Assembly (NCBI GenBank): GCA_017309115.1
Contig: JAFLEF010000067.1
Span: 1-32,826 of the forward strand
Direction of reading: 5' to 3'
DNA length: 32,826 nt
Origin: Verrucomicrobiota bacterium
GTDB lineage: Bacteria > Verrucomicrobiota > Verrucomicrobiia > Limisphaerales > UBA9464
Made by a program: the position numbers and the translations under genes. Shown here piece by piece: positions 2,882 to 32,704 of this stretch. Position 1 is the first letter of the stretch; each line of letters opens with the position of its first letter. The notes beneath the pieces were generated by a model. The model saw only the letters and a list, made by a program, of their open reading frames with translations, did not search any database and was not told the origin of the DNA.

Positions 2882-4924
2882 GCGAATTACGCTGCGAAGC
2901 TTTGGGAGCAGGAGCCGTCCATGGCGAGTTCGGAAAGGCTCGACCAGGTTTTATGGGTTAGGACCGGCCTTCGTGGGACCCATCCCATTTTCCAGGCGTG
3001 CGTGATTGGATGGCGCCTCCTGCCGTCGGCGGCTACGCATGCTCAAACCTCGCCCTGCCGGGCAGCCAAAGCACCCATTCTCCCCATCCCGCTTTCGCCC
3101 CTTCACCCTCTCCCGTCTCCCCGTCCTTTTCCTGTTTTCATGTTTTCCAGATTAGCCCTTCCCCTGTTCGTCTGCCCTAACGCCGATGGGGCTATGACGC
3201 GCCCGGTGCCATCAGAGCCTCGCCCATGGGAAAGCGGCAGAAAGTCTGCCCGCACTCCATAGGCTTCTCTCCTCCGCGAGCTCCGCGCCCTCCGCGGGAG
3301 ATTTTCGGATGTTTCGTGGCGCGTTGAGACAGGCAGGAGGTGTGGAGTAATTCGATGCGTCACTCGCCGGGACGGAAAGCGGTAGCTTCACTGCGTGGCG
3401 CAACCGCACTCCAAACGCTTCGCGCGAAGCCGACCTGTTCCGAACTTCACACGCGAAAAGCTCCGGTGACACGTGAGAGATTGGATGGCGCCTCCTGCCG
3501 TCGGCGGCTACGCATGCTCAAACCTCGCCCTGCCGGGCAGCCAAAGCACCCATTCTCCCCATCCCGCTTTCGCCCCGTCACCCTCTCTCGTCTCCCCGTC
3601 CTTTTCCTGTTTTCATGTTTTCCAGATTAGCCCTTCCCCCGCTCGTCTGCCCTTACGCCGATGTGACTATGACGCGCCCGGTGCCATCAGAGCCTCGCCC
3701 ATGGGAAAGCGGCAGAAAGTCTGCCCGCACTCCATAGGCTTCTCTCCTCCGCGAGCTCCGCGCCCTCCGCGGGAGATTTTCGGATGTTTCGTGGCGCGTT
3801 GAGACAGGCAGGAGGTGTGGAGTAATTCGATGCGTCACTCGCCGGGACGGAAAGCGGTAGCTTCACTGCGTGGCGCAACCGCACTCCAAACGCTTCGCGC
3901 GAAGCCGACCTGTTCCGAACTTCACACGCGAAAAGCTCCGGTGACACGTGAGAGATTGGATGGCGCCTCCTGCCGTCGGCGGCTACGCATGCTCAAACCT
4001 CGCCCTGCCGGGCAGCCAAAGCACCCATTCTCCCCATCCCGCTTTCGCCCCGTCACCCTCTCTCGTCTCCCCGTCCTTTTCCTGTTTTCATGTTTTCCAG
4101 ATTAGCCCTTCCCCCGCTCGTCTGCCCTTACGCCGATGTGACTATGACGCGCCCGGTGCCATCAGAGCCTCGCCCATGGGAAAGCGGCAGAAAGTCTGCC
4201 CGCACTCCATAGGCTTCTCTCCTCCGCGAGCTCCGCGCCCTCCGCGGGAGATTTTCGGATGTTTCGTGGCGCGTTGAGACAGGCAGGAGGTGTGGAGTAA
4301 TTCGATGCGTCACTCGCCGGGACGGAAAGCGGTAGCTTCACTGCGTGGCGCAACCGCACTCCAAACGCTTCGCGCGTAGCCGACCGGTTTCGAACTTCAC
4401 AAGCAAAAGCTCAGGTGGGCGTGCGTGATTGGATGGCGCCTCCTGCCGTCGACGGCTACGCGGTCAAACCTCGCCCTGCCGGGCAGCCAAAGCACCCATT
4501 CTCCCCATCCCGCTTTCGCCCCTTCACCCTCTCTCGTCTCCCCGTCCTTTTCCTGTTTTCATGTTTTCCAGATTAGCCCTTCCCCTGTTCGTCTGCCCTA
4601 ACTTCGATGCGGCTATGACGCGCCCGGTGCCATCAGAGCCTCGCCCATGGGAAAGCGGCAGAAAGTCTGCCCGCACTCCATAGGCTCCCCTCCTCCGCGA
4701 GCTCCGCGCCCTCCGCGGGAGATTCTCGGATGTTTTGTGGCGCGTTGAGACAGGGGAGATGTGGAGTAATTCGATGCGTCACTCGGCGGGACGGAAAGCG
4801 GTAGCTCCACTGCGTTACGCGACCGCACTCCAAACGCTTCGCGCGAAGCCGACCGGTTTCGAACTTCACAAGCAAAAGCTCCGGTGGGCGAGCGTGATTG
4901 GATGGCGCCTCCTGCCGTCGGCGG
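2882..4924. repeat. Tandem array of about 475-bp units
   Basis: Units start with gattggatggcgcctcctgc at 3004, 3479, 3954, 4427 and 4896 (spacings 475, 475, 473 and 469), the last copy being cut off after about 30 bases at the stop codon of the next gene. Each unit holds: a pyrimidine-rich stretch, cctgttttcatgttttcca, gggaaagcggcagaaagtct with cgcactccatagg, a ctccgcg-rich module ending cgcgggagat, gacggaaagcggtagct, and actccaaacgcttcgcgc. Roughly the first 420 bases of units two and three look identical, while units one and four differ at scattered bases. 2882-3003 holds no gene. Open frames inside repeat with the same period and are not genes. Confidence 0.9.
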
Positions 4925-5926
4925 CTACGTCCCGACCTTGTTCTGGAACTCTTCGAGTACCCATTTGAAGTCCACACCGGTGCCGGCGAATTTTTCGGCG
5001 AGCCCAGGAATTCTAACCTTCCCCCAGTTCTTCAACTCCTTGAGGTGCTTTTTCGTCGTGTAGTTGGGCGCCGGAATCCTCCCGACCCACCGTTCCACGG
5101 CGCGACGGGTGGGCGAGGCGAGACGAGCCACTTCAGCCGGGGACAGTTCCGCGGCGAGCACGAAGTCCAGTGCCGGTTCCGCATAACCAGATTCGAGTTC
5201 GGACGACAGACGGTCGAGAAACTGAGGATGGGAACGCAAGCGTGCGGTGGCCGCGTCCCGGATCGTGCGGCCGGAATGTAAACTGGCACTCCGGAGCAAG
5301 TCTTCGAACTGGGTCTCCGGATCGAGCGCAGACACCCGGGCCAGCAACTCTTGAGCCGATGGACCAGGATTGCTGATCCGGTGCGCAAGGATAGCCACCG
5401 CGCCCACCGTCCCACGGAAGGTCCGCACCCCGACGTATCCCCCGCCGACAACAAGGCTCAGACCGGCCAGAAGCGCCCAGGGAACCCGCAACCATTGGAG
5501 AGGCACTCCCGCGGTGAGCGAAGGATTCACGCTCAGAACCACCAGTAACACGGTAGAGAGCGGAACGAGGTAAATCACCGGGCTATAAAGTTGGCGCGGG
5601 GTAAAGCCAGGGCGGATGTATAGACCAATGAAGACAAACGTCAGAGCGGCCAATGCCAAGGCCGCCAAGGCAGTCAGCACGTAGAGTGAAGTTCGCCCCA
5701 AGGGCAACCAGTCAAAGCCGCCGCGGTTGGCGACACACAGCAACGCAACCAGCAATAGCAGCCAAAGCGGCGCGAGAATGGACAGCGTGGGCGCCACCCA
5801 TCGGTCGTCACTAAGGTACCTGCGCGAGTAGTCCCACAGCACGTTTCTCAGAGGGAACAGCAGCAGCGCCGCCGCGAGACCCGCACACACGTTGCCAGTG
5901 ATCTGGGTAATTGAGGGTGAATTCAT
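4925..5926 (-). CDS. Hypothetical multi-pass membrane protein
   Basis: 333 residues from the ATG at 5924-5926 (MNSPSITQITGN). An upstream in-frame start at 5989 would add 21 polar residues and is less likely. About five hydrophobic segments lie between residues 8 and 190 (for example AGLAAALLLFPLRNVLW, LSILAPLWLLLLVALLCV, YVLTALAALALAALTFVFIG, LVPLSTVLLVVLSV, WALLAGLSLVVGGGYVGV). A soluble region of about 140 residues follows, containing ETQFEDLLRSASLHSGRTIR and a basic C-terminus. This soluble part resembles a helical regulatory region, but no family is recognised. The stop codon TAG lies inside the first 30 bases of the final partial copy of the 475-bp repeat, so the true C-terminus may have been trimmed. 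Confidence 0.7.
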   Translation of the reverse strand: MNSPSITQITGNVCAGLAAALLLFPLRNVLWDYSRRYLSDDRWVAPTLSILAPLWLLLLVALLCVANRGGFDWLPLGRTSLYVLTALAALALAALTFVFIGLYIRPGFTPRQLYSPVIYLVPLSTVLLVVLSVNPSLTAGVPLQWLRVPWALLAGLSLVVGGGYVGVRTFRGTVGAVAILAHRISNPGPSAQELLARVSALDPETQFEDLLRSASLHSGRTIRDAATARLRSHPQFLDRLSSELESGYAEPALDFVLAAELSPAEVARLASPTRRAVERWVGRIPAPNYTTKKHLKELKNWGKVRIPGLAEKFAGTGVDFKWVLEEFQNKVGT

Positions 5927-12232: not shown

Positions 12233-12325
12233 GGTGGGGCGATCCTCCGCGGGGCCGTGCGCAGGTGGACTTCCCACGCGTCAATTCGCCGGGACACGAA
12301 CGGCTCGGTGGAACCTCGCCCTACC
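12233..12325 (+). repeat. Hairpin element, family A, copy 1 of tandem array
   Basis: 93 bp with 26-base terminal inverted repeats: left arm 12233-12258 begins ggtggggcgat and ends ccgt; right arm 12300-12325 begins acggctcgg and ends cgccctacc. It shares layout and most bases with the elements at 12356, 12479, 20318 and 23781. The left arm differs from the next copy at three bases. Confidence 0.85.
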
Positions 12326-12355
12326 CGCTTCCCGCTCAGCCTTCAGCTTTCCCTA

Positions 12356-12448
12356 GGTGGGGCGACGCTCCGCGGAGCCGTACGTGGGTGGACTCCTGAA
12401 GCGACAATTCGCCGAGACACGAACGGCTCGGTGGAACCTCGCCCTACC
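12356..12448 (+). repeat. Hairpin element, family A, copy 2
   Basis: Left arm 12356-12381 (ggtggggcgacgctccgcgg then agccgt) pairs without gaps with right arm 12423-12448 (acggctcggtggaacctcgc then cctacc). By hand count 21 Watson-Crick pairs, two G-T pairs and three mismatches span 26 positions. The 41-base centre includes gtggactcctgaagcg and attcgccgagac. A 30-base linker (12449-12478) leads to the next copy, giving a 123-bp period. Confidence 0.9.
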
Positions 12449-12478
12449 CGCTTCCCGCTCAGCCTTCAGCTTTCCCTA

Positions 12479-12571
12479 GGTGGGGCGACGCTCCGCGGAG
12501 CCGTACGTGGGTGGACTCCTGAAGCGACAATTCGCCGAGACGCGAACGGCTCGGTGGAACCTCGCCCTACC
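12479..12571 (+). repeat. Hairpin element, family A, copy 3
   Basis: Almost identical to the preceding copy, 123 bp downstream, with arms 12479-12504 and 12546-12571. One clear difference is cgcgaa for cacgaa beside the right arm. The following linker ends at 12600 and the next unit changes into a different hairpin family. Confidence 0.9.
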
Positions 12572-12601: not shown

Positions 12602-12675
12602 GGTGGGACCACCAAAGCTCCGGTTGGCCTCGCTGCACTGGCCAACCGGGGACGGCCCAGCGGTCCGACCCTACC
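12602..12675 (+). repeat. Hairpin element, family B
   Basis: Starts ggtgggacc and ends ggtccgaccctacc, like family A in its outer bases, but the core is different: ccggttggcc (12620-12629), a 10-base loop, ggccaaccgg (12640-12649), a perfect 10-bp stem. Reverse-oriented and partial relatives lie at about 28070-28124 and 32576-32603. Confidence 0.75.
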
Positions 12676-12692
12676 ATTCCACTGAACACCGT

Positions 12693-13832: not shown

Positions 13833-14643
13833 ATGGAAATCAGGAACGAGCGGCAGACCGGCCGGAATCGATCTGGTTACGGGAGCGCATGGCGCAGCTG
13901 AGAGCTGAGAGCTGAGAGGCAGAAGCGGTAAGCGGTAAGCGGTAAGCGGTAAGGACGCGAAGCTATGGAGTGCGGCAGACCTTCTAGACCTTCTAGCCAG
14001 AAGGCCTGCGGCACTCCATAGAAGAGCCCGTCCCTTTCCTGTTTTCATGTTTTCCAGATTCGTCTTTCCCCTCCTCCGCGAGCTCCGCGCCCTCCGCGGG
14101 AGATTTTCGGATGTTTTGCGGCGCGTTGAGACAGGCAGGAGGTGTGGAGTGATTCGACGCGTCACCCGGCGGGACGGAAAGCGGTAGCTTCACTGCGTGG
14201 CGCGACCGCACTCCAAACGCTTCGCGCAAAGCCGACCGGTTTCGAACTTCACAAGCAAAAGCTCCGGTGGGCGTGCGTGATTGGATGGCGCCTCCTGCCG
14301 TCGGCGGCTACGCGGTCAAACCTCGCCCTGCCGGGCAGCCAAAGCACCGATTCTCCCCATCCCGCTTTCGCCCCTTCACCCTCTCTCGTCTCCCAGTCCC
14401 TTTCCTGTTTTCATGTTTTCCAGATTCGTCTTTACCCTACCGCGAAGTCGTTGAGCGTCGAATGACCGGAACATGGTCGTCTCCCAGTCTCCCCCCCTTT
14501 CTCCCCCTCTCCTCCCGCCCTCGCATTTGCTTTGAATGTCTTTCCCCAAGGAAGGACGTGAAAATCGGCTCACTTCCCGTCAGCCTTTCTGAAATCCCTG
14601 AAGGGTCGCTCCGGATTCGGTCAGCCCTTTCGGGAGTGTGGCT
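13833..14643. repeat. Repeat block between divergent genes, including a 366-bp relative of the 475-bp unit
   Basis: From the esterase start rightward: an agctgag heptamer tract (about 13895-13918), four copies of agcggta (13924-13951), a strong hairpin (13963-14021), then one unit of the array family with gttttcatgttttccagatt at both ends (14041 and 14407, 366 bp apart). Inside are the ctccgcg-rich module, gacggaaagcggtagct, actccaaacgcttcgcgc and gattggatggcgcctcctgc in the same order as at 3004-4927. 14450-14643 has no recognised repeat and should hold the promoter of the next gene. No genes. Confidence 0.8.
13963..14021. repeat. 23-bp stem hairpin
   Basis: Arms ctatggagtgcggcagacct plus tct (13963-13985) and its near-perfect reverse complement (13999-14021), 21 of 23 matching, separated by 13 bases. 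The tatggagtgcgg core is the reverse complement of the cgcactccatagg element in the 475-bp array. No T-run follows on either side, so it is not an obvious intrinsic terminator. Confidence 0.75.
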
Positions 14644-20064: not shown

Positions 20065-20656
20065 CCTACGGAGGGGTTCCCGCGGAGGACGCGGAGTTCG
20101 CGGAGTTGAAGACCGGGGTTTTCCTCTCAGCTCCCACTGGTGGGGCGACGCTCCGCGGAGCCGTTCCCTCGTGGAGTAGCTCCGCTCAATTTCGCCCTAA
20201 CGCGCCGAATTGAATCTCCCCCGCCGCCCCCCCACGCGCCCCAAAAGCGCCAGAGGGCTGGCGCAGTCCAAACGCTTCCCGCTTGCCGCTTCCCGCCTAC
20301 CTCTCAGCTTCTTCCCTGGTGGGGCGACGCTCCGCGGAGCCGTTCCGTCGTGGACTCCCGACGCGTCATTCGCCGGGACACGAACGGCTCGGTGGAACCT
20401 CGCCCCACCGTTAGAAAACCAGGAGAGGAACCACGAATCCCTCGGAAGAAGCACGAATGGGTGGGGAATGGAGAGAGACCGCCGGAAGCGACTGCCTTTC
20501 GCCCTACCTCTCAGCTCTCAGCTTCTTCCCTGGTGGGGCGACGCTCCGCGCTTCCCGCTTCCCGCTTCCCGCTTCCCTCTCAGCTCTCAGCTCTCAGCTA
20601 GCTCCGGCATCACCCCTCGACTTGTCAGGTCATCAGCGGCGTGAATAGGATGGCTC
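20065..20656. repeat. Repeat-rich spacer
   Basis: In order: an inverted ctccgcg-type module (ggaggacgcggagttcgcgg, about 20085-20105); a left half of hairpin family A (20139-20164) with a decayed right half; an agcgcca-gagggc-tggcgc hairpin followed by gtccaaacgcttcc (about 20247-20280), which looks like an unoccupied relative of the site at 28291; a complete family A element (20318-20409); a truncated left arm of family A (20531-20549); a cttcccg heptamer tract (20551-20578); and an agctctc heptamer tract (about 20579-20600). No gene is supported; open frames follow repeat sequence. Confidence 0.8.
20318..20409 (+). repeat. Hairpin element, family A, solitary copy
   Basis: Left arm 20318-20343 and right arm 20384-20409, with a 40-base centre containing gtggactcccgacgcg and attcgccgggacacga. 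The right arm ends cgccccacc, whereas other copies end cgccctacc. That change turns the G-T pair of the tandem copies into G-C and keeps the stem. Confidence 0.88.
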
Positions 20657-23699: not shown

Positions 23700-23913
23700 T
23701 GAGTAATGAACCCGGACCCGGTGGGTGACGCCCAGCTTATCCCTGGTGGGGCAGCTCTCGGTCAGCTCTCAACTCTCCCCGGTGGGGCGACGCTCCGCGG
23801 AGCCGTGCGTTTGTGGACTCCCCACGCCTCACCCGCCGAGACGCGAACGGCTCGGTGGAACCTCGCCCTACCAATTCCCGCTTCCGACCTCTCAGCTCTC
23901 AGCTTCTCCCCAC
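23700..23913. repeat. Spacer with hairpin family A and heptamer tracts
   Basis: Contains a truncated ggtggggc start of family A (about 23748), agctctc tracts on both sides, and one complete family A element (23781-23872: arms 23781-23806 and 23847-23872). It lies between the promoter region of the secreted protein and the 3' end of the PVC cytochrome gene. Confidence 0.8.
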
Positions 23914-26900
23914 TCACTTCTTCCCCAGCGCGGCCAGATAGGCGACGAGATCCCGCAATTCCTCCGCGGACAATCCATCCACCAACCCCGCCGGCATGAG
24001 CGATCCCAGCTGACGTTGCTCCACCACACTCGAACGCGGCAGGGTTACCGTACGACCACTCAGGTGATCCAGAATCGTCAGAGTTTCGGCCGTCTCGCCC
24101 CGCAAATAGCCCTGGTACATGGTGCCGTCCTGCACCACGAGTTCATGTGCCATGAAGCCTTCCTTAACCTCCCGCTGAGGCTCAATCAGGGCTCCCACCA
24201 CAAACTCCAAGGTCTGGGCGGTTCCCAATGCCCCGAGGTCAGGTCCCACCCGGCCTGGAGTCCCGTCCACAGCGTGGCACGTGGTGCAAGCGAGTTGCGG
24301 GGAAGCAAACAACTGCGCTCCGCGAGCGCGATCCGCCGACGCTCGGGCGGCCGCCACGACTGAAGGCACGTCCGCCGCCGACCATGGTTGCTTCCGGACT
24401 TCCGGGCTCATGGCCGCAACGAGAAGGAGATTCAAATCCGGCTCATGTCGTCCGTTCCGCGCCAGGACCTCCTGGATCACCCGGGCATTCGCCGCCGCCG
24501 GAGGACGTGCTCTCAGGGCCGCCAGAAGGGCGCCCATTCCATTTCGCTGACGAATAAACGCCTGCAAAGCGCTCGCCACGGCTCCGGGGTCAGCAGATCC
24601 CTGCCACCACTGAGCGGCCTGTCCGGCAGCTACCTCTAGCTGGAGCGGGACAAGTCCGGCCACTGCCGCGGCCCGCATGGGTCCAGGGAGATCCGAACTG
24701 GACAACGTCAGCAACGTTGCGGTGGATTTCGAGCCACCCAACCAAGCCAGTCCTTCGACCGCCGCCACACGTTCCAAAAGGGGTACTGAATCCGACGTCA
24801 CCAAAGCTTCCAGCGAAGCCCGCAGAGATTCGACTTTCCAGGCTCCGATCAGTTCGCTGGCGGCAGCCCGCACCTCGGGAGACGGCGACTGACTCAACCG
24901 CTGCAGCGCGGGCGCTTGGTCACCGTTTGGCACCAACCCGCGCCTTCGGCTCGATTCCGCAGCCTCGCGCAGGCGCCGGGCGTGCAGTGAAGCGTCATAA
25001 TTCGTGCCCACCGTGAACGACCGCGGCGACAGCAACACACTCAACTCGCCCGGGCCACCCGAAGCCGCGACCACCCCGGACAGCTGACGAATCGTCGGCG
25101 CGTCCAACGCCACCTCGCCGATACGCCGCAATCGGCCCGCCGCGTAGCTCACCGAACCCGCCCCGCCTTCCGCCTGCGCGAACGCGGCCGCCTGCTGGGA
25201 ATTCTGCAGCAACTTCAGTTCTCCCCGTGCTTGAGCCGAACTCCACCACGGCCGCAAGGCCGCAACGCACTGTGTGAACGCGTAGGTCAACGCGGAGTCC
25301 ATCGGTCGGTCCGCCGCCCGCGCGGCGATATCCATGGCCGCCGCCGTGGGCACATAACTGCACGCCACCACCGCCTCCAACCGCACCCGTGGATGCTCGT
25401 CCTGCACGAGGGTCGAAAGCAGCTCGAGCAGCGGAGCGGCTTCCCCCGTCGCCTTAACCGCGTTGACTCCCTCGCCGGCTGGGCTGACGCCGCCTCGGCG
25501 GGCCAACTCACCCGCCGCCCGGGCCGCAGCGGCGCGCGCTTCGGGCAACGCACTTGCCACCAGTTGTTGCAGCAGGGGAAGGTCCGTGGTGCCTAGAGCA
25601 ATCTGGGCACCCAGAACTTCCCATCGGGCCAGTTCGGAACCGGTTCCGGGCAAGGATTGAGCCCACGTCCGCAGGGCTTCCGAGGTGGGCACCGGATCCC
25701 GGTCCGCCAAGACCATCCGGGCCATTTGCCGATTCCACCGCTGGTTCGAGGACAACTGCTTCACCACCTCGGGTGTCGCCACGGCACCCAGCGGTGTCCA
25801 CGTCACCAGCGGACGTCCCTTCGCCGTCACGCGCCAGATGCGACCATTCGCCTTGTCCCGGTTGGGGTCCCGAAAACTGTTTTGGTAATGCCCTATAATC
25901 GGATTGTACCAGTCGCACAGATACAACGCGCCATCCGGACCGAAGCGCACATCCACGATACGGAACGCGGTGTTCGTCGACTCCACAAGCGGCGGCAGCC
26001 GTTCCGCCTTGAAGGTGGATCCGTCCGGAGTCAGACGGAACCGTTCCACCGTGTTTTGCAGATAGCCTCCCGACACCACCTCGCCCTGATTCGCGGTTGG
26101 CCAGTGGGTGTTCTCCACAAAATCAGCCCCGCCAAACTTCCGTCCCTGATTCCAGATCGACCGCTGCTCGAGAAAATGATCGGTCGCAATCATGGCCTGC
26201 GTCAGGTGATAGACTCCATGTCCGTTCCCCGCGAAGACGAACGGTTGACCCCACGCATCGAAGGCGGTTCCGAACGGATTGTGGGCACCCATCGCGCCGG
26301 TCCAGAACGGATCCAACCGCACCTGCCGTGGCCAGAACCGCCACACTCCGGCCTGACGCAACTCCGCCACGCCCCAGGGTGTCTCCACCCGACTCTCGGC
26401 GTGCAATCCCTGGGACATCATCAGTTCCCCCAGCGGTCCCCAGCAGAACGAATTGATCGTCTGATGCGTGTCGCCCGTACCAAAGCCCCGCAGAACGACC
26501 CGTCGTTCATCCGCCTTGCCATCGCCATTGGTGTCCCGCAGATGCAGCAGCTCGGTTGCCGCGCCAACGTACACCCCGCCCTGCCCCAACTCGAGTCCGG
26601 TGGGAATGTGCAAGCCACCGGCAAACACCGTCGAACGATCCGCTCTTCCGTCGCGATCGGTGTCCTCCAGCACGACCACCTGATCATCCGGTTCCTCGCC
26701 CGGCTTGATCTGCGGATACACCGTGCTGCCGACCACCCACAGACGTCCGTCGGGATCGAACCGAATTTGAATCGGTTTGCGCACACCCTCCTTCTCGGAG
26801 GCGAACAGGTTGACCTCGAATCCATCAAGGACCCGGAACGAGGCTTGTTCCTGCGCCGGATCCGACTGACCTCGGACCAGCGGACCCGTCAGCAGGGCCA

Positions 26901-26922
26901 AAATAAGAACCACGCGCTTCAT
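23914..26922 (-). CDS. PVC-type CxxCH dehydrogenase-like protein with HEAT repeats
   Basis: 1002 residues from the ATG at 26920-26922; the frame is open further upstream only because it overlaps the preceding gene. The signal peptide is about residues 1-18 (MKRVVLILALLTGPLVRG). A beta-propeller-like membrane-bound-dehydrogenase domain spans about 30-380, with FRVLDGFEVNLFASE, calcium-loop-like DTDRDGRAD and DTNGDGKAD, GPDGALYLCDWYNPIIGHYQ and DKANGRIWRV. HEAT-like helical repeats fill about 400-860. A c-type cytochrome domain ends the protein, with heme motif CTTCH at 879-883, VGPDLGALG, and LSAEELRDLVAYLAAL at the C-terminus. This is the architecture of planctomycete/verrucomicrobial putative heme-binding proteins, thought to be periplasmic oxidoreductases acting on sugars or alcohols; the substrate is unknown. 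It is translationally coupled to the upstream SGNH-like gene through an ATGA overlap. Confidence 0.94.
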   Translation of the reverse strand: MKRVVLILALLTGPLVRGQSDPAQEQASFRVLDGFEVNLFASEKEGVRKPIQIRFDPDGRLWVVGSTVYPQIKPGEEPDDQVVVLEDTDRDGRADRSTVFAGGLHIPTGLELGQGGVYVGAATELLHLRDTNGDGKADERRVVLRGFGTGDTHQTINSFCWGPLGELMMSQGLHAESRVETPWGVAELRQAGVWRFWPRQVRLDPFWTGAMGAHNPFGTAFDAWGQPFVFAGNGHGVYHLTQAMIATDHFLEQRSIWNQGRKFGGADFVENTHWPTANQGEVVSGGYLQNTVERFRLTPDGSTFKAERLPPLVESTNTAFRIVDVRFGPDGALYLCDWYNPIIGHYQNSFRDPNRDKANGRIWRVTAKGRPLVTWTPLGAVATPEVVKQLSSNQRWNRQMARMVLADRDPVPTSEALRTWAQSLPGTGSELARWEVLGAQIALGTTDLPLLQQLVASALPEARAAAARAAGELARRGGVSPAGEGVNAVKATGEAAPLLELLSTLVQDEHPRVRLEAVVACSYVPTAAAMDIAARAADRPMDSALTYAFTQCVAALRPWWSSAQARGELKLLQNSQQAAAFAQAEGGAGSVSYAAGRLRRIGEVALDAPTIRQLSGVVAASGGPGELSVLLSPRSFTVGTNYDASLHARRLREAAESSRRRGLVPNGDQAPALQRLSQSPSPEVRAAASELIGAWKVESLRASLEALVTSDSVPLLERVAAVEGLAWLGGSKSTATLLTLSSSDLPGPMRAAAVAGLVPLQLEVAAGQAAQWWQGSADPGAVASALQAFIRQRNGMGALLAALRARPPAAANARVIQEVLARNGRHEPDLNLLLVAAMSPEVRKQPWSAADVPSVVAAARASADRARGAQLFASPQLACTTCHAVDGTPGRVGPDLGALGTAQTLEFVVGALIEPQREVKEGFMAHELVVQDGTMYQGYLRGETAETLTILDHLSGRTVTLPRSSVVEQRQLGSLMPAGLVDGLSAEELRDLVAYLAALGKK

Positions 26923-27857
26923 TGAGAAATGCTTTTCTGGCGGAGGGCAGCTGCCCGTTGGGCCACCTCGGACTCGGCCGCTTGCAACAACGGCACGAAC
27001 TCCTCCATCTCTTGGGGAAACCAGCGAATGGACCGATCCCGATGATCCCGACTGCTCGCCTGTTCGGTTCGGTCCCCGGCGAGAAAGGCCCAATTGGTGG
27101 GACGCGAGTAGCGGAACCAAATCTTGTTCTTGGCGATGACGGCTTCCCGCAAGGCTTCAACATCCTTGCCACCCGGCTGAACGGTGTACTCGGCCACCAA
27201 CGCACCACGGCGGTCCGCGAGATCGAAAAGCGCAATCCAAGCCGCTATAGCTCGCTGGGAATCCGCTGTGGGCTGAACCCCGTCCTCCGTGCTCCAAGGA
27301 AACGGTGGCTCACCCTGATTTCCAAATACATTAATCACGCGCAGGTCCTGCCGGGTCCCGATCCGCTCCACGGCGTTGATATACAATCGCAAGTTTCGAT
27401 TCCGCGCGGCCACGGCTGCCGCATCCAAAGGCCCGCCTCCGCCGAACGGCGTGGGCGTCAGCAACACCACCTGCGGAACGACCTTCCGCACGTCCTGAAT
27501 CAGCGTCTCATAAGCGTTCTCAAATTCCTCGACGCCAGCCGCTCCCGCCAGCGACTCCATCTGGCCGAATTGCATCAGGACGGCGGTGGCGCCGATGGAT
27601 TTCAGCTGTTGATCCAACCCGGGATAATTGAGGGGGCGGGGTCGAGCGAACACCGTGTCACCTTCCCACGACAGATTGCGAAACCGGGTTCCCTTCCCTT
27701 GCTCCCGAAGCACGTAATAGGTCTCCAAGTAGCCCGCTTCTGAAGCGGCGACCAATTGCGAGCCACCGATCAGCGCCACCACGCCGGGAACTCGTTCTGC
27801 GCCGAGCGCGCTGAGCACACCGAGCCAACCCAAAAGTCCGAAAACGAGGACACGCAT
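26919..27857 (-). CDS. Secreted SGNH/GDSL-hydrolase-like protein
   Basis: 312 residues from the ATG at 27855-27857, which begins a good signal peptide (MRVLVFGLLGWLGVLSALGA). The SGNH-like layout is recognisable: block I region VVALIGGSQLVAASEAGYLE, then FRNLSWEGDTVFARPRPLNY, block III region VLMQFGQMESLAG, NRNLRLYINAVERIG, and block V region STEDGVQPTADSQRAIAAW. Compared with active GDSL enzymes, the block V His (DGxH) is Gln here, and the block III Asn-Asp is Met-Glu, so catalysis is doubtful or differs. Related proteins are often encoded beside PVC-type heme proteins. The stop codon overlaps the start of the heme-protein gene (ATGA), so both are made together. Confidence 0.82.
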   Translation of the reverse strand: MRVLVFGLLGWLGVLSALGAERVPGVVALIGGSQLVAASEAGYLETYYVLREQGKGTRFRNLSWEGDTVFARPRPLNYPGLDQQLKSIGATAVLMQFGQMESLAGAAGVEEFENAYETLIQDVRKVVPQVVLLTPTPFGGGGPLDAAAVAARNRNLRLYINAVERIGTRQDLRVINVFGNQGEPPFPWSTEDGVQPTADSQRAIAAWIALFDLADRRGALVAEYTVQPGGKDVEALREAVIAKNKIWFRYSRPTNWAFLAGDRTEQASSRDHRDRSIRWFPQEMEEFVPLLQAAESEVAQRAAALRQKSISQ

Positions 27858-27932
27858 GGCGAGTAGAGGCGCAAGACTGCCGAACTCCCTCACCCTTGAC
27901 CATCCCCAGAATCAAGCGAACCCGGGAAAAGC

Positions 27933-28012
27933 GTGAGGGCGTGAGGGCGTGAGGGCGTGAGGGCGTGAGGGCGTGAGGGCGTGAGGGCGTGAGGGCGTGA
28001 GGGGGTGAGGGT
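27933..28012. repeat. Octanucleotide tandem repeat (gtgagggc)n
   Basis: Eight exact copies of gtgagggc (27933-27996), then gtgagggg and gtgagggt. One strand is strongly G-rich. Located 76 bases upstream of the SGNH-like gene start, so copy-number change could affect its expression. Confidence 0.95.
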
Positions 28013-28306
28013 TGAGGGGGTGACTGGGAGACTAGGAGACAGAGGAGATGAATCTGGAACGTGGGAGCGATAGGGATGGACCGCCGGGCCGTCCCCGGTT
28101 GGCTGGCAAAGCCCGGCCAACCGGCAGTTGCTGGTCAGCGTAAGAAACCGGCAGCACCACCGTCCTTCTCGCTCCAGCCCGCGCGAAGCGTTTGGAGTGC
28201 GGTCGCGCAGCGCAGCGAAGCTACCGCTTTTCGTCCCGGCGGGTGACGGGCCAGAGTATTCAGAAACCTCACCCGCCATCCTCGCGCCCCAAAGCGGCAG
28301 AGGGCT

Positions 28307-28486
28307 AGCCCGGATATTTCACACTCTTTCTGCTGCGGCTGGCTGCAAGCCCGTCTGGCGGCGTTGGCCTCGCATTCCTCGCCGGACAGTATGTCCCCAT
28401 ACAGCCCGGTTCGGAATCGCTTCGGCCGCCTTGCCAGACGGGCTTTCGCGGCGCCTCGCGACGAAAGCCTGTGAAATATCCGGGCT
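28307..28486. mobile_element. MITE-like 180-bp inverted-repeat element
   Basis: Outer arms agcccggatatttcaca (28307-28323) and its exact reverse complement (28470-28486), 17 of 17. Inner arms aagcccgtctggc (28347-28359) and its exact reverse complement (28433-28445), 13 of 13. The sequence between outer and inner arms matches imperfectly, so each half is about 53 bases, enclosing a 73-base centre. It interrupts a repeat: aaagcggcagagggct on the left and ctgccacactccaaacgctt on the right correspond to the continuous agcgccagagggctggcgca at 20247. No coding capacity. A clear target duplication is not visible. Confidence 0.7.
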
Positions 28487-28522
28487 CGAGGTCTGCCACA
28501 CTCCAAACGCTTCGCGGCTCCC

Positions 28523-28608
28523 GGTAGGGCGAGGTTTCCACCGAGCGTCCCGGCAAATCACGCGTCACCCCTCCACACCCGAACGGCTCCGCCGAGCGTC
28601 GCCCTACC
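28523..28608 (-). repeat. Hairpin element, family A, reverse orientation
   Basis: Begins ggtagggcgaggtttccacc and ends cgagcgtcgccctacc, i.e. the family A arms read on the other strand, with right arm at 28523-28548 and left arm at 28583-28608. It is 86 bp, with a shortened and diverged centre; inner stem pairing is weaker than in the plus-strand copies. Confidence 0.7.
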
Positions 28609-28685
28609 GCTTACCGCTTACCGCTTACCGGCCCCTCCCCTTCCGACCTCTCAGCTCTCAGCTCTCAGCTCTCAGCTTTCCCCGA

Positions 28686-32271: not shown

Positions 32272-32704
32272 GACCTTTGCCGTGTGGGTAATCTCAAACC
32301 TCAGGAACCGCTGAGCGAGCAGAGAACAGTAGATGGTATCCGCAGATTGACTCCGATTCCCGCAGATTCTTTGGGAATCCGACTTGTTCAGTGTCTCCCC
32401 TTCCCACTCCCCCTCTTTCCCTTCCCCTTTCCTGTTTTCATGTTTTCCAGATTCATCCCCCTCCGCGAACTCCGCGTCCTCCGCGGGAGACCCTTTCCCC
32501 GGGGTGTAATCGAGGCGGGTGTCCGTTCGACGCTGACCAGCAAAGGCCGCGTTCCGACGCTGCGCGCGGAAGCGCGGGGACGGACCAGCGGTCCATCCCT
32601 ACCGAGGAGAAGTTGAGAGTTGAACGTTGAGAGTTGAGAGACCGGAAGTTGGCCGCGTCCCCAAGTCTCGCCCTCCCACTTTCTCCGTCGCCGTCTTCCT
32701 CCTT
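32272..32704. repeat. Repeat-bearing spacer near the right edge
   Basis: Holds cagatt repeat fragments (32338-32374), cctgttttcatgttttcca with flanks (32426-32453), a ctccgcg-rich module (ctccgcgaactccgcgtcct, 32461-32480, then ccgcggg), and a family B fragment (32576-32603) containing the perfect hairpin GGACC-agc-GGTCC. Then gttgagagttgaacgttgag. No gene is supported. Confidence 0.75.

Follow-up and report, generated by a model that had tools for sequence, protein, structure and literature searches.

The window analysed here (the whole stretch of 32,826 nt) corresponds to contig C76 of a Verrucomicrobiota genome of 7.53 Mb in 111 contigs, 95.3% complete. Its genes include those for a planctomycetal DUF1592/1588/1587/1585/1595 cytochrome-type protein and a DUF1552 protein, and it carries six copies of an 86–93 bp element with 26-nt inverted ends. 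Three of them, numbered as REPIN copies 1–3 after the reading favoured below, form a tandem cluster on the + strand at 12233–12325 (left arm partly decayed), 12356–12448 (93 nt, the reference copy) and 12479–12571. The cluster has spacings of 123 and 123 bp and two 30-nt linkers of identical sequence (12326–12355 and 12449–12478). Solitary copies lie on the + strand at 20318–20409 (GTGG on both arms) and 23781–23872, and a reversed copy, shortened to 86 nt, occupies 28523–28608 (−). All six copies, as well as the 123-bp spacing, had been reported in the preliminary description and were confirmed. Additional to these are a partial copy with an intact left arm (20139–20204, +), a fragment of a left arm (20532–20550, +) and two solitary arms with stem AGT/ACT and loop TCCC (559–583 and 903–927, both −).

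The neighbouring tandem copies match the 93-mer without gaps at 81/93 and 92/93 positions, compared with a best ungapped match of 47/93 in 100 first-order Markov windows; the solitary + copies at 20318 and 23781 contain an indel relative to the 93-mer and reach ungapped matches of only 56 and 53. A 24-nt arm pattern, GTRGGGCGANNNTYYNNNGAGCCG, has 10 exact occurrences in the window versus 0 in 300 Markov windows. In the copy at 12356, the left arm (12356–12381, +) is a GTGG-tagged REP hairpin with stem CGC/GCG and loop TCC, and the right arm (12423–12448, read on the − strand) is a GTAG-tagged REP hairpin with stem GGT/ACC and loop TCC. Recomputed without gaps, the 26-nt ends of this copy pair in 21 Watson–Crick and 2 G–T positions with 3 mismatches, exactly as first described.

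Several further repeats share the window. A ~475-bp unit is repeated four times in tandem at 2997–4987, with a partial copy at 14027–14440 and an inverted 68-nt piece at 28180–28248 (−). Two tandem copies of a 350-bp unit span 200–932, each followed by one of the solitary AGT/ACT arms; the genome has this arm on contigs C3 and C10 as well. A second inverted-repeat element (12603–12680) has the tips GGTGGG...CCCTACC in common with the first and a different body; inverted relatives of it lie at 28064–28124 and 32575–32604, and it possibly represents another GTRG-tagged family. A tandem 8-bp repeat, GCGTGAGG, occupies 27931–28018, just past the start of the gene at 26919–27893. Two motifs, CTCTCAG (7 bp) and CGCTTACC (8 bp), form short tandem runs that abut elements and other intergenic repeats at 515–541, 13887–13954, 20573–20608 and 28602–28677, and occur in many linkers.

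Arm hairpins and their covariation

A profile search of 34 stretches of the genome (142 kb) yielded 79 full and 8 partial copies; the full copies make up alignment A1, and a covariance model (R1) was built from the copies. The arms are laid out as GTRG followed by GGC-GA-NNN-loop-N'N'N'-GA-GCC with a loop of 3–4 bases, so that an unpaired GTAG-type tetranucleotide stands at one end of a short stem–loop, a feature of the GTAG REP superfamily. The element is composed of two such GTRG-tagged REP hairpins arranged head to head around a conserved spacer of ~40 nt. In A1 the left-arm stem is CGC/GCG in 74/79 copies. Right-arm stems are more varied (GGT/ACC in 56/79, GGC/GCC in 16, CGC/GCG in 2, GAC/GTC in 1 and non-complementary in 4), and the right-arm loop is variable. 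The internal GA/GA mismatch is retained in 75/79 left and 76/79 right arms, and the tag reads GTGG in 58 and GTAG in 16 of the 79 left arms, and GTAG in 63 and GTGG in 16 of the right arms.

The small arm hairpins are backed by compensatory change. On A1, 98.7% of their cells are paired versus 96.7% in shuffles, and 23 double-change cells were counted against 5.5 expected, a value reached by 0/500 shuffles; 20 of these 23 cells fall in one right-arm pair and are partly shared by descent. The left-arm hairpin has no double-change cells on A1, and the number of further pair types in the arm hairpins (8) is not higher than in shuffles (8.0). Within a 175-kb sample of the genome, 176/206 arms have Watson–Crick stems (shuffled mean 69, maximum 87). 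Among the arms listed for 26 other genomes of the order, which include 20/28 arms of one genome (G066), the count is 80/104 (shuffled mean 32, maximum 42), with stems GAC, CAC, GGC, GAG, AAC, AGC, TAC, ACC and others. After reduction to one entry per genome and type, three standard pairs form in 37/50, against a mean of 17 and a maximum of 25 in shuffles. This cross-genome comparison covers the stem only, as the arm pattern fixes the bases outside it.

The long stem formed between the two arms behaves differently. On A1, 95.9% of its cells are paired with one double-change cell, and both the paired percentage and the covariation score were equalled or exceeded by 500/500 shuffles; selection for the long hairpin was rejected on these counts. 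The long stem forms because the two arms resemble each other, a likeness that by itself yields pairing. The preliminary description had taken a G–T to G–C change in the copy at 20318 as a sign that the stem is selected or copied as a hairpin. The change itself is real (22 Watson–Crick pairs and 1 G–T pair), but it provides no evidence for long-stem selection. One copy can fold into a single long hairpin, as REPINs can, and better than shuffles on both strands (z −3.8 and −3.4, DNA parameters), without covariation across the long stem. Unconstrained RNAalifold predicted the local arm hairpins plus six outer pairs of the long stem; it folded the left arm as CTC/GAG (GCTC/GAGC) in preference to CGC/GCG, the fold chosen here by analogy with the right arm. 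These findings indicate that the small hairpin of each single arm, and not the long one, is the unit kept constant.

Abundance, placement and spread among relatives

The genome search for the arms suggested in the preliminary description disclosed a genome-wide family. The pattern GTRGGGCGANNNTYYNNNGAGCCG occurs 462 times exactly and 650 times at ≤1 mismatch in the 7.5 Mb genome, and the reversed control pattern 0 times at either setting; BLAST placed the element at ≥75 sites with 40 of 467 candidates scored. Simple duplication limited to the copies of the window is contradicted by these numbers. Copies are intergenic at 42/43 sites, the remaining one overlapping the start of a predicted gene (calls by a simple in-house codon-score gene finder), so that high copy number goes together with extragenic position as in the GTAG REP superfamily. 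The 37 sites with both neighbours known comprise 17 co-directional, 12 divergent and 8 convergent gaps, a distribution compatible with random orientation (p = 0.57). TSDs of 4–10 bp were sought in 74 copies, excluding 5 of the 79 with incomplete ends or short flanks, and found in none; flank matches of 2 and 3 bp (6 and 3 of 74 copies) stayed within shuffles.

Head-to-head pairing was observed for 168/206 arms in the whole own-genome sample, where full copies are over-represented, and for 20/41 arms in stretches chosen from outside the full-copy set. The GTRG-to-GTRG distance is 90–92 nt for 160/168 paired arms, the fixed-length doublet typical of REPINs. Among the 21/41 unpaired arms, 6 have a decayed partner (score ≥12), compared with 14/552 control positions. 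Searching the same 175 kb to a distance of 4 kb, we found no neighbouring head-to-head arms more than 226 bp apart that could mark a larger parent element.

Solitary copies are dispersed, and some have multiplied locally as tandem units of element plus linker. Sixteen tandem clusters contain 51/79 copies, with arrays of up to seven; we take these clusters of REP pair plus linker to be BIME-2-like. Linker identity has a median of 0.83 within clusters versus 0.31 between them (maximum between clusters 0.89); some linkers therefore resemble those of other clusters, and many have a common CTCTCAG run. Between copies of different stretches, the median identity is only 0.85.

Among relatives the family is patchy within the order. 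The exact arm pattern occurs in 27/196 genomes of the order (own included; 21/108 genera) and in 3/387 genomes of a draw across the phylum (again counting the present one; the other two have one match each), where the reversed control gave one match in one genome. The arm count of the present genome is by far the highest among pattern-searched genomes; the next, G101, has 128 arms at ≤1 mismatch. At the DNA level, with ≤9 candidates scored per genome, the whole element matched 3/97 genomes, namely the present one and two congeners (G003 and G004) whose copies are diverged in sequence and of the same architecture. No empty site with conserved flanks was found in the congeners: orthologues of the flanking esterase are present in G001, G002 and G004, and orthologues of the 23914–26922 protein in G001–G004, with the element-side neighbour not found there in either case. 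The exact 25-nt left arm was further detected in at least 31 stretches of named genomes, the listed ones all Verrucomicrobia/Spartobacteria/Chthoniobacterales MAGs; in most, a spacer of ~10–25 nt separates the left arm from a right arm with stem GAC/GTC, giving a shorter pair, and a few have no recognisable partner arm. A minimal 48-bp form, with two head-to-head arms, no spacer and one imperfect stem, lies at 2537–2584 of locus L271 (genome G058).

Y1 transposase loci and arm flanks

A co-occurring RAYT/TnpA, the partner suggested by the preliminary description, was sought at Y1_Tnp genes. The search (E ≤ 0.001, 28 genomes) turned up 203 such places. Of these, 146 were read as loci and scanned for arms: the five of the present genome (L031–L035), 30 of ten relatives, 3 more of G004, 30 + 48 of 12 genomes reached via named Verrucomicrobia/Chthoniobacterales loci, and 30 from five genomes of the order that bear arms. 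None of the 146 is flanked by arms, some loci being cut by contig ends; this includes 0/5 in the present genome at its 95.3% completeness. All Y1 places found were read in 20 genomes that bear arms (own, G003, G004, G016, G058, G066, G069, G631 and G097–G108), and 0/110 are flanked. The scan left aside 57/203 places, located in G005 (16), G006 (6), G007 (22) and G577 (13), of which G006 and G577 bear arms. The arrangement that defines a REPtron, the same REP on both sides of a RAYT, was not seen among the loci read.

Single weak arm matches (≤2 mismatches, no complementary stem) occur in L119, L213, L279, L280, L282 and L288. In L271 the minimal arm pair, with one of its two stems imperfect, lies 0.8 kb from a Y1 gene that has an internal stop and different repeats of its own; this locus has two more matches, one that forms no stem and one that does, the latter with 3 mismatches. 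The proximity of the pair to the gene is probably incidental. When ten Y1 loci were searched for repeats, other repeats were found on both sides in nine and on one side in one, and a REP-marked gene would therefore have been noticed. Other repeat families, at least three in number (CGGAGTCCCGGCTTTAGCCGG, AGATTGCCTGGCACTC and a 350-bp repeat), are present in the five Y1 loci of the present genome. The window (28296–28497) and Y1 locus L034 (2492–2677) have in common an inverted pair, CCCGGATATTTCACA...TGTGAAATATCCGGG, with a span of ~200 bp.

The bases directly upstream of the tag differ between GTGG and GTAG arms. Over all arms, CC precedes GTGG in 40/66 versus GTAG in 10/33 on the left side, and in 19/27 versus 14/80 on the right. 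Reduced to clusters, the counts are 26/41 versus 7/20 (p = 0.055) and 9/17 versus 10/50 (p = 0.014), with a Mantel–Haenszel odds ratio of 3.7 (p = 0.002) in this post hoc comparison. PMC8266576 reports that changing GTAG to GTGG in one REP shifted cleavage to CC. The CC–GTGG link has the direction expected from that published guide model and may serve, as a post hoc observation, as a pointer to Y1-type chemistry. No matching link of upstream CT with GTAG arms was found, and strand-asymmetric flanks could instead account for the CC link.

Interpretation and known REP families

Anatomically the copies correspond to REPINs, the head-to-head dimers of GTAG REPs, and match neither DDE-type MITEs nor a conserved RNA. 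We regard it as likely that the copies form a REPIN family, that is, a GTRG-tagged head-to-head REP heterodimer with covarying arm stems, intergenic and free of TSDs. Of the readings offered in the preliminary description, REP/BIME-type DNA is borne out by the GTRG-tagged imperfect palindromes, head-to-head pairs, intergenic position, lack of TSDs and tandem clusters. Mobilisation by a RAYT is putative here. The element would be dispersed as single-stranded DNA by a Y1 HUH transposase of TnpA-REP (RAYT) type, which would recognise the two small hairpins and take GTRG as its guide for cleavage. Slippage or unequal recombination would subsequently produce the tandem clusters. Since no RAYT that was read carries the arms, the enzyme may act in trans, may have been lost or may lie in the unseen part; the same result lowers the claim of a complete REPIN–RAYT system, and not that of REPIN-like working.

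A REP-like pair might instead be moved by an enzyme other than Y1/RAYT that recognises GTRG hairpins, with the REPIN likeness convergent or the family taken over. Twenty arm-bearing genomes without an arm-marked Y1 gene and the other repeats around ten Y1 loci speak for such an enzyme, which we nevertheless consider unlikely, as the anatomy fits GTAG REPs and the 175-kb sample revealed no larger parent element. It also seems improbable that we are looking at an old REPIN population without present transposition, in which copy number changes through replication slippage, unequal recombination and gene conversion: clusters with their own linkers, the modest identity between stretches and the unpaired half of the arms outside the full-copy set agree with this, but the solitary copies, found at dozens of sites whose flanks differ, demand dispersal at some time.

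The two other readings raised in the preliminary description fare worse. A structured RNA or transcription terminator preserved for its RNA fold would explain why one copy folds better than shuffles, but the window has 0 matches to Rfam 15 at gathering score, gap orientation is random with no 3'-end preference, tandem arrays reach seven copies, and the arm is missing from most genomes of the order and phylum searched; this reading was rejected on the Rfam result and gene orientation, and is very improbable. Imperfect terminal inverted repeats of 26 nt would suit a MITE served by a DDE transposase. This candidate was rejected on the absence of TSDs in 74 copies, and with covariation confined within the arm and none between arms it is hardly tenable.

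Tentatively, and with low confidence, we propose that the several hundred arms constitute an orphan REPIN population, related to others across the order and in Chthoniobacterales, that spreads without a REP-marked RAYT, through a RAYT associated with other REPs acting in trans or through another enzyme. If this holds, the GTGG/GTAG arms would display the guide rule (GTGG with CC) in genomic flanks. The data add several families of one order, probably of Verrucomicrobiota, to the range of REP pairs supported by covariation, and the single-arm hairpin as constant unit bears on the fold used by the transposase. With a large REPIN population lacking a marked RAYT, REPIN persistence without a transposase of its own becomes a testable question.

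Literature searches on REPs in Verrucomicrobia returned nothing beyond PMC3733652, although a family given in a figure, a supplement or a journal outside their coverage would escape them, and a search with an 11-letter arm piece returned only unrelated titles. REPINs are tied to RAYTs (PMC3116915, PMC3733652). Those of P. fluorescens SBW25 (Bertels and Rainey 2011, PMC3116915) likewise consist of two inverted REPs with a spacer in extragenic DNA, and occur dispersed and in tandem clusters that take in flanking sequence; their cognate RAYT adjoins REPs, whereas none was found for the present family. In E. coli REP/BIME with TnpA-REP (PMC8266576), an imperfect palindrome likewise comes after GTAG, its internal mismatch being conserved, and unlike REPs form mosaics; the mismatch is AA/GC there and GA/GA here, stem and loop are different, and no Y1 gene is linked to the arms here. 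The GTAG REP superfamily (Di Nocera et al. 2013, PMC3733652), which includes families of Opitutus terrae, a member of the Verrucomicrobia, offers head-to-head dimers with terminal GTRG and a short stem–loop, heterodimers with different stems, spacers mostly of 20–100 bp and tandem groups. Its REPs reside mainly in co-directional and convergent gaps, a preference not seen in the present family, which does not avoid divergent gaps. Some species with GTAG REPs are without REPtrons (PMC3733652). The O. terrae families are GTAG-17 to GTAG-20, and the GTAG-20 repeats have GTGG in most cases (PMC3733652); the present family may or may not be identical with one of these four. The present family is of a kind already known, the REPIN type, except that no transposase gene marked by its own repeat was found among the loci read.
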